DNA from: Gordonia terrae
GTDB lineage: Bacteria > Actinomycetota > Actinomycetes > Mycobacteriales > Mycobacteriaceae
Assembly: GCF_001698225.1 (NCBI RefSeq)
Contig: NZ_CP016594.1
Coordinates: 372,001-436,000 of the forward strand
Direction: 5' to 3'
DNA: 64,000 nt
The notes under the pieces were generated by a model that did not search any database, had not been told where the DNA came from, and was given only the letters and a program-made list of their open reading frames with translations. How positions within the stretch are numbered: the stretch's first letter is position 1; every line of letters begins with the position of its first letter. The translations under genes were made by a program, and so were the position numbers. Positions 1 to 59,875 of the stretch are shown here, piece by piece.

Positions 1-1411
1 GTCGCCGGCCCATGTCCGACATGAACACCCGGTTGGGGTCGATCCGACGACGCGTGGCGATCCACTCGTCGATCTCCGGGTACATGGCGTGGAAGTTCTC
101 CGCCGACGTGCGCGAGTCCTTGGCGGTGTAGAGGCGGCCGCCCATCGACATGACGCGGCGGTCGAGCTCGTTGAGGAACTCGGCGAGATCGGCCTTGACG
201 GGGAAGTCGAGGCAGACGTTCCAGCCCTTGAACGGGAAGCTCAGGGGCGCCCGGTTGCCCTCGCCGAAGAGCTTGATGACGTTGAGGAAGCTGACGTGGC
301 CCGACGCCTGGATGTCCTCGATGAGTGCGGTGAACTCGCCCTCGTTGCCGGTCGGGACGATGAACTGGTACTGGCAGAAGCCGCCACCGCGTCCGTACGC
401 GTTGTTCCAGTCACCGAACACGTCGAGCATGTGATAGAACTGCGCGAGATTTTTGACCTTGCCCTCGCTCGGCGGTCCGATCCGGTAGTAGGCCTCGCCG
501 ACCGCGGAGAAGCTGAGTTTGTTGGCGAGCCCGCGCGGGAAGATGTCGGGGAACCGGACCAACGGCTTGTTGTTGAACGACAGCGGGTTGTCCCGGTACT
601 TCTCCGGCAGTTCGTCGACGCGGGCGAGGTTGCCCCGCGAGAAGGTGCCGCGGCCCAGCTTGGGCGGTGCGCTGATGGTGTCGAACCAGCCCGAGGCGTA
701 CTCGTACCCGTTCTCGAAGCCGTCCTCGAGGTGCAGGTCGATGGTTTCCTGCAGCGAGCCGGTACGAGCGGTGTCGGCGATGAAGTACGCGCTCTCGGTG
801 CGCTTCATCTGGATCGTCGCCCGCAACACGATCCCGGTCAGTCCGATGCCGCCGATGGTCGCCCAGAAGAGTTCGCCGGTGGGATCGTCGGCCGAGCCGC
901 CCGGGGTCAGGGTCAGGACCCGTCCGTCGGCGACGAGGAGTTGCATCTCGACGACATGATTGCCGAAGCTGCCCTGGCTGTGGTGGTTCTTGCCGTGGAT
1001 GTCGTGCGCGATCGCGCCGCCCACCGTCACCTGGCGGGTGCCCGGAAGAACCGGCACCCACAGGCCGTGCGGGAGCGCTGCCTGCATGAGCGCGTCCAGG
1101 GAGACGCCGGCATCGACATCGACGGTGGCCGATTCGTCGTCGATGGCATAGATCCTGGTCAGTGGCGTCATGTCGATCGTGAGGCCGCCGCTGTTCTGGC
1201 CCGACTCGTTGTAGGAGCGACCGAGTCCACGGGCGATGACGCCGCGCTTGAGGTAATCCGGCTTGTCCGCGTTGTCGTCGGCCACGCGGGCCACGGCCTC
1301 GGCGATGACCTCGGGGTACGGCGTGGACAGGACATGACCCTCGATCGGGGTGGTGCGAGACCAGCCCACGAGCTTGCGGGTCGTGATCGGCAGCAACTCT
1401 TCAGTAGACAT
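1..1411 (-). CDS. dprE1: DprE1, decaprenylphosphoryl-beta-D-ribose 2'-oxidase (3' end cut by window edge)
   Basis: FAD-dependent oxidase of the arabinan precursor pathway; with DprE2 it epimerises decaprenylphosphoryl ribose to the arabinose donor used in arabinogalactan and LAM synthesis. The translation from ATG 1411 follows mycobacterial DprE1 throughout: an FAD-binding stretch with [17 protein letters not shown], then [25 protein letters not shown], and a C-terminal half with [35 protein letters not shown] and FMSDMGRR. Only about five residues and the stop lie beyond the edge. Cys400 in GWNVCLDFP corresponds to Cys387 of M. tuberculosis, the covalent target of benzothiazinones, so the drug-binding cysteine is present. 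DprE2 is not in the window and would be expected just to the left. Confidence 0.96.
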
Positions 1412-51185: not shown

Positions 51186-53363
51186 CTACCCGCGGAGGAT
51201 CACCAGCTGCTGGGTCGCCCGGGTCATCGACACGTAGCGGTCGACCGCACCCTCGATGCCCGCGCCGAAGGAGTCGGGGTCGACGAGCACCACGAGATCG
51301 AACTCGAGTCCCTTGGCGAGGGTCGGGGTGAGCGACCGCACGCGGTCGGTCCCGGCGAACCCCGGTTCGCCGATCACGCAGGCGATCCCGTCTCGATGCG
51401 TCGACGTCCACTCGCCGACCACCGCGTCGAGGTCCGCGCGGTCGCCGTACGTGACCGGAATGTCCGCCCGCCGAACAGAAGTCGGCACATTCGCGTCGGG
51501 GAGAACCGCGCGGATGACGGGTGCAGCAGCGTCCATGATCTCCTCGGGGGTTCGGTAGTTGATCGTGAGTCCCGCCGCTGTGACGTCGCTCAACCCGACC
51601 CGCTCGAGTCGCTCGGCCCAGGACTCGCCGAATCCTCGGCGAGCCTGTGCGCGGTCGCCGACGACGGTGAAGCTCTTCGACGGGCAACGATCGATCAGCA
51701 TCTGCCACTGGGCGTCGGTCAGTTCCTGTGCCTCGTCGACGACGATGTGCGCGAACGGCCCGGCCAGCGGGCCGGTGGTCTCACCGTCGAGGTCGTCCCC
51801 GAGGTTGTGGCGCAGGTTCTCGTGTCGCAGCATCGCCATCAACCCCTCTCCGTCGTCGTGGACCTCGGCGGCGATCAGGTCGTCGACCACCTGGTCGATC
51901 TTCTCGCGCTCCGCCTCCCGGTCGGAGCGCTGCCTACGACGACGGGCCGACGCCGCCGGGTCGCCGATCCGGCGGTGGGCGCGGTCGAGGATCGGCAGGT
52001 CGGCCTCGGTCCAGGCGTCCGGGTTGCTGCGCTGGAGTGCGCGGACCTCGTAGGGTGACAGCCACGGCGCGCACATGCGGAGGAAGGCCGGCACCGACCA
52101 CAGGTCACCGACGATCTCCGCGGCGTCGAGCACCGGCCACGCTCGCGAGAATGCCGTCACGAGTTCGTCGTTCGCCGACAGTGCACGACGCAGCGCGTGG
52201 TGCGGCACGTCGTCGTCGTGTCGCGACGCGATGATCGACATCAGCTCCTCCCAGACCTCGTCGCGGGCATCGTTGTGCGCCGTGCCGCGTTCCGGTACGT
52301 CGAAGGCCTCCGCCCAGTCGGTCGGGGTCAGAGTTGTCTCGGCCCAGGGCGTTTCGACGACAAAGGGTGCTGTGGGTGGTTGTTCGTAGAACTTGACCGC
52401 CGGTTCGACGGCCTCGACCATGCGAGCCGACGACTTCAACCGTGCGACGGCGGCGTCGGCTTCGGTTGTCGCCGAATCGCCTTCGGCAACCAGATCGGCG
52501 AGAGTGCATGTCTGGACACTCTCCTCGCCGAGGCTCGGCAACACATCGGCGACATACGAGAGGTAGGGCCGGTGGGGCCCGACGACGAGCAGCCCGCCCC
52601 GATTGCCGGCGAGGCGCGGATCGGCGTAGACGAGGTAGGCGGCACGATGCAGCGCGACGACGGTCTTGCCGGTCCCGGGCCCGCCGTCGACGACGAGGGC
52701 GCCGTGCGATCCGGCGCGGATGATCGCGTCCTGATCGGTGGCGATGGTGCCCAGGACATCCCGCATGCGCGGAGAACGACTGGCACCGAGGTCGGCGAGG
52801 AAGGCCGACTGGTCGTCGAGTGCCGCGTGTGAGGCGAGCACCGCCGGGTCGTCGACGAAGACCTCGTCCCAGTAGTCGGTGATCCGACCGTGTGTCCAGC
52901 GGTAGCGGCGTCTGCTCCGCAGCCCCATCGGGTCACGCCGGGTGGCGGCGAAGAACGGCGCGGCCAGCGGCGTGCGCCAGTCGACGAGCAGGGTGTCGCC
53001 GGTGGGATCGGTCAGACCGAGCCGGCCGATGTACAGGATCTCCCCGTCGTCGCGGACCAGACGGCCCAGGCAGAGGTCGAGGCCGAATCGGCGCAGAGAT
53101 CGAATGCGCGCCCCGAGCTGGTGGATCTCCATGTCGCGGTCGACCGCCCGGCGGCCCTTGCCGCCGGCTTCGCGCCGCAGTCCCTGCAAGCGTTCGTCGG
53201 CGTCGGCCAGCGTGCGGCACAGATTCGTGGTGATCGACGTGAAGTGTCGAGCGTCGTCGGCGATGAGGGCGGGATCGTTCTTCGGGGAGAGGCGGTGAGG
53301 GAGGTCGAACACCGCGGTGGTCGTCGAAGTCGCGTCGGAGGGGGCGTCGGGGGCTGAGGTCAC
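51186..53363 (-). CDS. helR: HelR, RNA polymerase-recycling helicase-like ATPase (rifamycin tolerance)
   Basis: 725 aa from GTG 53363 or 748 aa from ATG 53432; the start is uncertain. UvrD/HelD-like ATPase: NTP-binding VVDGGPGTGKTVVALHRAAY, Walker B HIVVDEAQELTDAQWQMLID, GDRAQARRG and GLEFDLVVLVDP with the C-terminal YVSMTRATQQLVILRG. A long N-terminal coiled arm (about 60-120) inserts into polymerase in relatives. HelR displaces rifamycins from RNA polymerase; a rifamycin-associated element lies just upstream, supporting that subtype over generic HelD. GTG 53363 is preferred because a CAGAAT -10 fits between element and start. Confidence 0.9.
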   Translation of the reverse strand: MTSAPDAPSDATSTTTAVFDLPHRLSPKNDPALIADDARHFTSITTNLCRTLADADERLQGLRREAGGKGRRAVDRDMEIHQLGARIRSLRRFGLDLCLGRLVRDDGEILYIGRLGLTDPTGDTLLVDWRTPLAAPFFAATRRDPMGLRSRRRYRWTHGRITDYWDEVFVDDPAVLASHAALDDQSAFLADLGASRSPRMRDVLGTIATDQDAIIRAGSHGALVVDGGPGTGKTVVALHRAAYLVYADPRLAGNRGGLLVVGPHRPYLSYVADVLPSLGEESVQTCTLADLVAEGDSATTEADAAVARLKSSARMVEAVEPAVKFYEQPPTAPFVVETPWAETTLTPTDWAEAFDVPERGTAHNDARDEVWEELMSIIASRHDDDVPHHALRRALSANDELVTAFSRAWPVLDAAEIVGDLWSVPAFLRMCAPWLSPYEVRALQRSNPDAWTEADLPILDRAHRRIGDPAASARRRRQRSDREAEREKIDQVVDDLIAAEVHDDGEGLMAMLRHENLRHNLGDDLDGETTGPLAGPFAHIVVDEAQELTDAQWQMLIDRCPSKSFTVVGDRAQARRGFGESWAERLERVGLSDVTAAGLTINYRTPEEIMDAAAPVIRAVLPDANVPTSVRRADIPVTYGDRADLDAVVGEWTSTHRDGIACVIGEPGFAGTDRVRSLTPTLAKGLEFDLVVLVDPDSFGAGIEGAVDRYVSMTRATQQLVILRG

Positions 53364-53434
53364 AGAGAGGGGCTCCGAATCGGCAGGCGGCAGGGTGGTC
53401 TCGGCAGGTGCGACAGCGATTCTGCACCGCATGG

Positions 53435-53454
53435 GGGGCCTTGCGGCAAGCCCC
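53435..53454 (-). promoter_or_regulatory. Rifamycin-associated element (RAE) upstream of helR
   Basis: Read on the minus strand, GGGGCTTGCCGCAAGGCCCC is a near-perfect palindrome of the RAE type reported upstream of actinobacterial rph and helR genes. Its CTTGCCG half could also serve as a -35 (TTGCCG), with CAGAAT as -10 19 nt further on. It predicts rifamycin-inducible helR transcription. Confidence 0.85.
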
Positions 53455-53895
53455 TGTCCAGGGCTTATGGTGAAAGGGGAAGAGCGATCGTCGGGCGCGC
53501 GGGTGAAACGGACCCCGGTTTCATGTGATCCGATGACCAATCAGCTGTTGCGGGCCGCGATGGTGTATGTGAAAGTACTTTCAGTTCACTACGGTGAACT
53601 CCTATCGGTGGGGCCTGTCAGGGGGCTGCCGCCCCCGAGCGCACGGGGGCGGGGCGGCAGCGCGGCCACAGCCTTCATTTCCCGGTCTCCCGGGTCGCGA
53701 CTCATTCGACCGACTGGTCCGCTTCTCTGCACCGCATCGACGTGACCTGCGGCTTTCCGATCGTCGGCGTGAGCACCAGACCTCGCGCCGTAAGGTCGGA
53801 GGTGGAATGACACGCGGCGTCGCGCCGGTCCGCCGGTTCGGAGCGGGTGCTTCGACGCGTCGACGACGACGCAGGATCTCGACCGGAGGCCGACG
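53455..53895. other. Gene-free region between helR and the MmpS-like gene
   Basis: About 440 bp with several structured elements but no ORF I support. It contains the operator-like pair at 53570-53600 and a GC-rich hairpin (53625-53661: GCTGCCGCCCCCG pairing with CGGGGGC...GGCAGC, 5-nt bulge) without a T tract. A frame from 53807 with a good GGAGG overlaps the next gene out of phase and has Arg-rich, non-coding character. Confidence 0.5.
53570..53600. promoter_or_regulatory. Two abutting palindromes (operator-like)
   Basis: TGAAAGTACTTTCA (53570-53583) is a perfect 14-bp palindrome and is followed at once by AGTTCAC-TACG-GTGAACT (53583-53600), perfect 7-bp arms. The DNA is AT-rich relative to its surroundings. 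No gene starts nearby on either strand within 100 bp. Confidence 0.55.
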
Positions 53896-58478: not shown

Positions 58479-59159
58479 TCAGCCCATGCTGAACGGCTTG
58501 CCGTACACGGCGATCGATTGCGACACGTTGTCGGTCGTGATGCTCACCTTGGCGTAGGAGCGGGCCTGTGCGTAGCCGGCACAGCCGTTCACCATCATCG
58601 TCTCGTTGGTGTACGCCAGGGTGCCCTTGCCGCCGGCGAAGCTGATCGACGACGAGTGTCCGGCTGCACCGAACGCGTCCTTGTACTCACGGTCGTTGAT
58701 GACGTAGTTGACCGCCTGGCCGGGGCCGATGGTCACGCCGGCTCCGGTCTCGGCCGTCGTGGTCGCGCTCTGGAGGTCGTAGTCGGGTGCGGTCGCGCCG
58801 GCCCGGCTGTTCGAGTTGCCGCCGAGGGTGAGCTGGCAACCGACGATGTAACCCGCGCCGACGCCGATCTTCGCCGCCTTGTCGGAGGTGGTCACCACGT
58901 ACTTGCCGGAGACCCATGCATTGCGATGCAGGGGCGTGCCGCCCATGGAGGGGTTGATCCGCGCGGATTCGTTGCTGCGCGTGATGGTCACCGTCGTACC
59001 GTCTTTCAACTTCTTCGTGACGGACTGTCCGGGGAGTTGGACGGCGGTGTCGGCCTGCGCGGGTGCGGCGGTCAGCGCGGGCACCAGTGCCGCGCAGGCG
59101 ATTGCGGTTGTGGCCGCGATGATCCGGGTGCGCGCGGCGGGGCGCTGGGGGACGGTCAT
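58479..59159 (-). CDS. MspA-family outer-membrane porin, copy 1
   Basis: 226 aa. Signal peptide ending PALTAAPAQADTAV, then the MspA domain: LKDGTTVTITRSNESARINP, LHRNAWVSGKYVVTTSDKAA, KIGVGAGYIVGCQLTL and C-terminal CAGYAQARSYAKVSITTDNV. MspA-type proteins form octameric channels in the mycolate outer membrane. GGAG lies 5 nt before ATG 59159. Only 47 bp separate it from the upstream copy, so they form an operon. Both keep the pair of cysteines in GYIVGCQ and NGCAGYAQ, which could form a disulfide. Confidence 0.92.
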   Translation of the reverse strand: MTVPQRPAARTRIIAATTAIACAALVPALTAAPAQADTAVQLPGQSVTKKLKDGTTVTITRSNESARINPSMGGTPLHRNAWVSGKYVVTTSDKAAKIGVGAGYIVGCQLTLGGNSNSRAGATAPDYDLQSATTTAETGAGVTIGPGQAVNYVINDREYKDAFGAAGHSSSISFAGGKGTLAYTNETMMVNGCAGYAQARSYAKVSITTDNVSQSIAVYGKPFSMG

Positions 59160-59206
59160 GGGAGCTCCGATTCGGCGAGTCTTGGTCATGGTCAACGGGT
59201 TCGCGG

Positions 59207-59875
59207 TCAGCCGATGGAGAACGGCTTGCCGTAGAGGTTCACCTTCTGGTGCACCTCGCCGGTGGTCTCGATCGTGGTGAAGGCACGGGCCTGGGCGTAC
59301 CCGCCACAGTTCTGCACATCGATCTGGGCGTCGTCGTAACCGAGATGGTAGGTGCCGGCCTTCTCGATGTTCTTGGTGTTCAGCACCACGAACGTGACGT
59401 CGCCGGCGGCAAGTGGAACGGTCAGGGTGCCCGAGAGCGACGGCGCGGTCGGGGTCAGCGAGCCGGACAGCCCGCCCTGGAGGCCCTTGATGTTCACCTG
59501 GCATCCGATGATGTAACCGGTGGACAGTGTGGCGGCGGCGCCGTTCGTCGCGGTTCCATTGCTCCCCGGTAGTGTCGTCTCGCCGGCCGCACCGACACTC
59601 GGCCCTGCCTTGGCGGGCTTGAGATGTGGTGCGTACAAGGTGATCTGGCCGCTGACCCAGGTGGTCCTGGACACGCCGTTCGCGGCCATCGACGCCGAGA
59701 CCCGGGCGCTCTCCTCGGACCGGACGATCTGGATGCCCTCACCTTTCGCGGTGCCGCCCGGAAGTCGGACGAATGCGTCTGCGCCCGCCGACGCGGCGCC
59801 GGCGAGCAGCGCGGCAGTCACCGATCCGCCGATGAGTGCGGACAGTCCGACGGCCCGCAAGGTTCGTTGTGTCAT
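59207..59875 (-). CDS. MspA-family outer-membrane porin, copy 2
   Basis: 222 aa. Signal peptide MTQRTLRAVGLSALIGGSVT...AGADA. Shares with copy 1 the spine SEESARVSASMAANGVSRTT, WVSGQITLYA, STGYIIGCQVNIKG and CGGYAQARAFTTI, and the ending YGKPFSIG (copy 1: YGKPFSMG). A Gly/Ala/Thr-rich insertion (TTLPGSNGTATNGAAATLST) sits where copy 1 has a shorter loop. First gene of the porin pair. The two are old paralogues, not a recent duplication. Confidence 0.92.
   Translation of the reverse strand: MTQRTLRAVGLSALIGGSVTAALLAGAASAGADAFVRLPGGTAKGEGIQIVRSEESARVSASMAANGVSRTTWVSGQITLYAPHLKPAKAGPSVGAAGETTLPGSNGTATNGAAATLSTGYIIGCQVNIKGLQGGLSGSLTPTAPSLSGTLTVPLAAGDVTFVVLNTKNIEKAGTYHLGYDDAQIDVQNCGGYAQARAFTTIETTGEVHQKVNLYGKPFSIG

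Follow-up and report, generated by a model that had tools for sequence, protein, structure and literature searches.

The window analysed here comprises 64,000 nt of the Gordonia terrae genome (assembly GCF_001698225.1, NZ_CP016594.1 positions 372,001-436,000, forward strand), and on its reverse strand lies helR, preceded by a rifamycin-associated element (RAE). The RAE is described as a 19-bp palindrome overlapping the -35 box of the downstream promoter (PMC10719064), and the palindrome at this locus fits that printed description, in support of the original prediction, which had identified it as an RAE situated 70-90 bp before the GTG start of a HelD-like ATPase. The 20-mer that it reported, GGGGCTTGCCGCAAGGCCCC, does lie there, at 53435-53454 (minus strand), 72 bp before the GTG at 53363. 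The principal features are as follows.

51186..53363, minus strand: helR, RNA polymerase recycling/rifamycin-protection ATPase HelR, 725 aa from GTG, NCBIfam NF041254
53373..53376, minus strand: GGAG, a plausible helR ribosome binding site 9 nt before GTG 53363, placed by eye
53436..53454, minus strand: RAE core palindrome GGGGCTTGCCGCAAGGCCC, 19 bp; the originally reported 20-mer extends to 53435
G000:C1:196716-197168, minus strand: arr, outside the window, which likewise has an RAE flanked by the two -10 boxes (L002, L209)

Elsewhere in the window, the ORFs at 58479-59504 and 59207-59875 (minus strand) are adjacent and apparently encode paralogous secreted proteins with a common C-terminal GYAQAR...YGKPFS-G.

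The HelR protein

The helR product scores 1178.3 bits against NCBIfam NF041254 (motor_HelR; cut-off 750), with residues 19-724 aligned to positions 1-706 of the 706-position model, and this full-length pass supports the proposed identity as a HelD-like ATPase and HelR. Far lower scores were obtained for the same ORF with the HelR_2 model (409.7) and the M. smegmatis HelD model (358.3). The solved structure closest to it in sequence is that of M. smegmatis HelD (PDB 6yxu, E 1.6e-93); the clamp-arm region aligns with that of the M. smegmatis protein at similar length, and D485, which is reported to clash with rifampicin, is matched by a Glu, as counted by eye on a printed alignment. The translation also contains the Walker A ATPase motif GGPGTGKT, a trait of class II HelD/HelR proteins. 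The product probably frees RNA polymerase from rifamycins. The genome encodes a second protein of the HelD family (C1:3210810-3213104), 35% identical to HelR.

An alternative helR start at 53432 was rejected, being upstream of the predicted sense transcription start; it lies between the -35 and -10 boxes of the sense promoter and therefore could not be used by a transcript from that promoter.

RAE sites in the genome

Within the window, GGGGCTTGCCGCAAGGCCCC has no other match at up to 3 mismatches, and only 2 of 100 shuffled sequences gave any match. Across the 5.70-Mb genome the same threshold returns only two RAE sites, namely the helR site (0 mismatches) and C1:197216-197235 (1 mismatch). 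As a control, the reversed pattern gave 3 genome matches at up to 3 mismatches, and none when the 19-bp pattern was used at up to 1 mismatch. The second RAE directly precedes arr, an ORF scoring 172.9 bits on NF033144, rifampin ADP-ribosyltransferase (cut-off 130). Since the only two sites in the genome precede helR and arr, the element is common to both. Hence the locus displays two traits of an RAE regulon: the 19-bp palindrome overlaps the -35 of a rifamycin-resistance gene, and the element is common to another rifamycin gene of the same genome. We predict that helR is a rifamycin-inducible target-protection gene. Neither the second RAE nor a mirrored antisense -10 box, described below, figured in the original prediction.

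Conservation beyond the palindrome

To describe the surroundings of the palindrome, positions were numbered from p=0 at its first G (window 53454) and 168 sites were oriented by their gene, of which 43 were dropped for similarity or a missing flank. The 125 non-redundant sites retained comprise 41 from the genus and 84 from named genomes, the latter among the matches listed. These sites were chosen by the core pattern and hence were not used as evidence on the core itself, for which the genus helR set served instead. Conservation among the 125 extends well beyond the 19-bp palindrome, and at the G. terrae locus the conserved positions correspond to the following features.

53444..53449, minus strand: sense -35 box TTGCCG inside the RAE; TTGC is invariant in the 125 core-chosen sites and in 48/48 genus helR sites
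53419..53424, minus strand: sense -10 box CAGAAT, 19 bp past the -35; NANNNT at the same spacer in 121/125 sites
about 53414-53411, minus strand: predicted sense start
53441..53446, plus strand: antisense -35 box TTGCGG in the other RAE arm, the mirror of the sense -35; GCAA is invariant
53466..53471, plus strand: antisense -10 box TATGGT, 19 bp past the antisense -35; TANNNT in 122/125 sites and in 48/48 genus helR sites
53478..53479, plus strand: predicted antisense +1/+2 GG, 7 nt past the antisense -10

The sense layout thus consists of a -35 TTGCNG at p5-10 and a -10 CAsAAT at p30-35, with a 19-bp spacer, which bears out the suggestion that one half of the RAE acts as a -35 with CAGAAT as its -10. 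The antisense layout is its mirror image about the centre of the palindrome, with TTGCNG occupying p13-8 and TANNNT p-12 to p-17, again separated by a 19-bp spacer. That spacing is specific: antisense TANNNT occurs in 0-1 sites at each of the remaining spacers between 12 and 26 bp. The box accompanies all five gene families, in 63/64 sites before HelR, 14/15 before Arr, 30/30 before rox-like genes, 8/9 before Rgt and 7/7 before Rph, and the predicted antisense +1 and +2 positions are G in 123 and 114 of the 125 sites respectively. The two hexamers are asymmetric; the sense box is NANNNT in 121/125 sites but TANNNT in 1/125, against 122/125 for the antisense box. The commonest forms are CAGAAT and CACAAT on the sense side and TATGGT, TACGTT and TAAGTT on the antisense side. 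A scan for consensus promoters confined to 16-18 bp spacers found nothing in the region, which counts against the two-promoter reading.

In the genus helR set, TTGCNGCAA and antisense TANNNT are each present in 48/48 sites and sense NANNNT in 47/48. A family-level scan of 111 genomes, at least 81 of which gave a match, provided sites outside the discovery of the pattern; the antisense box was present in all 25 new loci examined among the matches listed, one of which (G055) is also among the 48. When the palindrome arms were left out and the G. terrae genome was searched with both -10 boxes and TTGCNGCAA only, the matches without mismatch were helR and arr, the next being 7 matches at 3 mismatches, compared with 3 control matches. 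Because the antisense box is so widely conserved, the RAE can be read as the place where two promoters, lying back to back, are fused at their -35 boxes, and in our judgement the antisense reading of the upstream box is quite likely to be right.

Distribution in the genus and in named genomes

At up to 1 mismatch a site is present in 47 of 59 genus genomes, as against 2 control matches. All 58 such sites were read, and they precede helR (43), arr (11) or a rox-like FAD monooxygenase (4; L131, L153, L155 and L170, 35-37% identical to the Nocardia query). A HelR orthologue, at about 51-52% identity or more, occurs in 48/59 genus genomes, and the element stands before every one of the 48; the core search had reached 43 of these sites, and starting from the genes added the other 5. 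Scoring from the gene side covered 37 different helR genes and found the best position to be the RAE in 37/37, with the downstream box of L206 shifted by one base; no tblastn hit was obtained for the six HelD-paralogue pieces L264-L269, which were left unscored. The HelD paralogues, at about 34% identity, carry no RAE at up to 1 mismatch, since all 58 genus sites are assigned elsewhere. It is therefore very improbable that the palindrome stands by chance in front of a helR that is expressed constitutively, given its presence before 48/48 helR genes and its absence from these paralogues. Arr is encoded in 24 of the 59 genomes, with an RAE in 11 of them.

The helR genes of G050, G042 and G013 (L191-L193) have the core CGGGCTTGCCGCAAGGGCC and an upstream box, CAACTTATAGCG, whose score against the non-HelR profile is among the highest in the genus. 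At G017:C18:14018-16151, helR appears as two separate matches with the RAE kept, which could reflect assembly error or decay.

The named genomes are a sample, comprising 121 sites in 120 stretches among the matches listed. A recognised gene follows in 110 of the 121 sites so listed: HelR/HelD in 44, rox-like in 30, Rgt in 17, Rph in 13 and Arr in 6, although 6 of the 44 'HelR' partners show no more than 35-37% identity and could instead be HelD. The statement that the same palindrome occurs upstream of rph and helR elsewhere is thereby corroborated, and can be widened to arr, rgt-like and rox-like genes. One example each of the rox-like, Rgt, Rph and Arr genes was compared with NCBIfam; Rph and Arr pass, and because the Rgt (503 vs 800) and rox-like (346 vs 800) examples fall below their cut-offs, these two names are approximate.

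A dedicated divergent gene was considered as a general purpose for the antisense promoter and rejected, since the ORFs on that side differ in cluster among the genus members sampled. At three Microbacterium helR loci (L031, L058 and L117), related ORFs begin at a distance of 1-47 bp from the RAE, on its antisense side, that of L058 having an FMN_red domain, and the antisense promoter may drive them there.

Palindromes without a recognised gene

Thirteen palindromes have no recognised gene downstream (11 from the named set among the matches listed and 2 from Lysobacteraceae); 7 have both -10 boxes and 6 have neither. In the named set the boxes are both present in 7/11. Five of these (L007, L059, L063, L067 and L080) have 49-507 bp of downstream room; the L056 palindrome overlaps a HelR hit, and L112 (about 933-1325, minus strand), with 1168 bp of room, is followed by what by eye resembles a rox-like N-terminal remnant. 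Neither box is found in L010, L012, L022 and L108 (4/11), and the L012 palindrome probably lies inside a gene, because it is located between two Rph-like matches. Where there is more than 400 bp of room (n=8), both boxes are missing in 6, which speaks for the composite element, while L063 and L112, the two that have them, speak against it. The flanking boxes help to separate palindromes of rifamycin genes from chance ones.

The element beyond Actinobacteria

In the Lysobacteraceae (the Vulcaniibacterium family of the NCBI taxonomy), the core is matched in 17/79 genomes and the control in 7. Seventeen loci were read, and 15 of them lie upstream of a gene for Arr (10), a rox-like protein (4) or Rph (1); the 15 include the seed site L286, and one further site, in G234, was left unread. 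Antisense TANNNT occurs at 19 bp in 11 of the 15 gene-linked sites, and the 2 geneless loci have neither box. In L270, L278 and L280 (rph or rox-like) we note by eye an antisense TAAGAT at a 16-bp spacer in place of TANNNT at 19. A search of 299 Pseudomonadota genomes with the composite pattern gave 5 matches, all before arr or rox-like genes, and 1 control match; 3 of the 5 repeat the Lysobacteraceae sample and, because the pattern demanded bases of both boxes, these matches are not independent proof of them. In Minicystis rosea (Myxococcota; L093), an RAE with the antisense box precedes a rox-like gene, the sense hexamer ending in A, and in Aerophototrophica (Alphaproteobacteria; L032) arr has the palindrome without antisense TANNNT at 19 bp. 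Two MAGs labelled as Chloroflexi have an RAE before rph (L026) and a rox-like gene (L042), possibly through contamination. At the level of sequence, these loci show the RAE element to be present outside Actinobacteria.

Discussion

The G. terrae locus belongs to the already known RAE-helR kind and is well formed. What is new is that the palindrome reads as the centre of a larger element with a mirrored antisense -10 box. Our literature comprised excerpts of PMC10719064, PMC12802891, PMC8655204, PMC11464796 and PMC13246000, with the primary RAE papers outside this scope, and these excerpts nowhere describe the RAE as having an antisense promoter. What reads the element is stated to be unknown both by a review of 2022 (PMC10719064) and by a paper of 2026 (PMC12802891), and a mirrored antisense -10 before five unrelated kinds of resistance gene makes the question of drug sensing directly testable.

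We consider it probable that helR is an inducible gene governed by a composite element of about 60 bp, in which the RAE would provide the shared -35 region of back-to-back promoters. By analogy with its relatives, HelR, as a class II HelD, would bind and open a stalled RNA polymerase, displacing both rifamycin and nucleic acids. The sense promoter to helR would be weak, having C at the first -10 position and a 19-bp spacer; the antisense promoter, which has TANNNT and would start at GG, is predicted to be active and to read away from helR, and looks the stronger of the two. As the -35 boxes overlap, one polymerase should use only one promoter at a time. In the absence of drug, occupation of the shared -35 would keep the sense promoter low, and rifamycin would relieve that occupation, such that helR and arr would rise together. 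A polymerase arrested on the antisense side should, in turn, cover the sense -35, so that either the arrested complex is cleared fast or a dimeric factor chooses the promoter.

How the drug is sensed can be explained in more than one way. The RAE might be a polymerase-reading switch with no operator, in which a strong antisense promoter competes with a weak sense promoter and RNA polymerase is itself the sensor. If true, this would explain how one palindrome serves unrelated genes (helR, arr, rph, rgt-like and rox-like) and recurs in Gammaproteobacteria and Myxococcota, although we hold it only tentatively, at rather less than an even chance. An antisense-arrested polymerase should block the overlapping sense promoter and not free it, and 4 of the 15 antisense hexamers at 19 bp in Lysobacteraceae are not TANNNT; both points count against the two-promoter view. 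The RAE might instead be an ordinary operator, through which a rifamycin-responsive dimeric factor activates or releases the sense promoter, with the mirrored box as an outer site or an incidental promoter. This possibility, raised in the Discussion of PMC12802891 and in PMC10719064, falls only a little short of an even chance in our estimation. A bound factor is favoured because the arms of the RAE are conserved beyond the need of a -35, with G at p1, G at p2 and C at p17 each in 48/48 genus helR sites. The outer boxes, however, are not copies of one half-site and yet both fit a -10; no factor is named in the excerpts of PMC10719064 and PMC12802891; and the same regulator would be needed in the gammaproteobacterial family (15/17 loci, before arr, rox-like or rph) and in Minicystis.

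It is also conceivable, if unlikely, that there is no antisense promoter and that the upstream box serves as -10 for a further sense promoter (P1), as in M. smegmatis helD. Two sense promoters have been mapped in M. smegmatis, where the RAE follows the P1 start by about 20 bp (PMC10719064). The reverse complement of TANNNT contains ANNNT, so that the upstream box may equally be taken for a sense -10; in the sense direction the box reads CANNNT, and NANNNT is found in 124/125 sites. The loss of the first antisense T in exceptions such as L032, L270, L278 and L280 is likewise better tolerated by a sense reading. Yet no sense -35 is conserved to accompany such a box, TTG occurring in no more than 2/125 sites at each position between -60 and -29, and a start 20 bp before the RAE would place the -10 further upstream than the box. 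Neither the A at p-12 nor the C at p-24 (98% each) would be explained by a second sense promoter, nor would the exactly mirrored spacing, and the conserved bases around the hexamer agree with an antisense start.

Comparison with known systems

The B. subtilis helD/pps alarm offers an appealing though inexact parallel. It is alike in combining a weak sense promoter with a stronger, GTP-initiated antisense promoter (PMC12802891), although in G. terrae the order of strength is read from the bases of the boxes. In B. subtilis, the strong antisense promoter holds helD down until rifampicin arrests it, and moving the convergent promoters into the range of steric interference abolished induction by rifampicin (PMC12802891), which weighs against the overlapping arrangement proposed here. 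The alarm promoters are convergent and 39 bp apart, whereas those proposed here are divergent with overlapping -35 boxes, an arrangement distinct from that which defines the alarm; for this reason the collision mechanism of B. subtilis could not apply unchanged. The rpoBC operon of M. smegmatis resembles the proposed switch in having two promoters between which the drug shifts the balance to one; it differs in that these are the upstream and downstream promoters of a single operon, described in the excerpt of PMC10719064 without mention of an RAE. Closest are the helR and helD genes of M. abscessus, S. venezuelae and M. smegmatis, which likewise encode HelR/class II HelD proteins and have a 19-bp palindrome over the -35 (PMC10719064, PMC8655204). 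Accounts of those genes invoke two sense promoters and an unknown factor, while the G. terrae element, as we read it, has a mirrored antisense -10 box.
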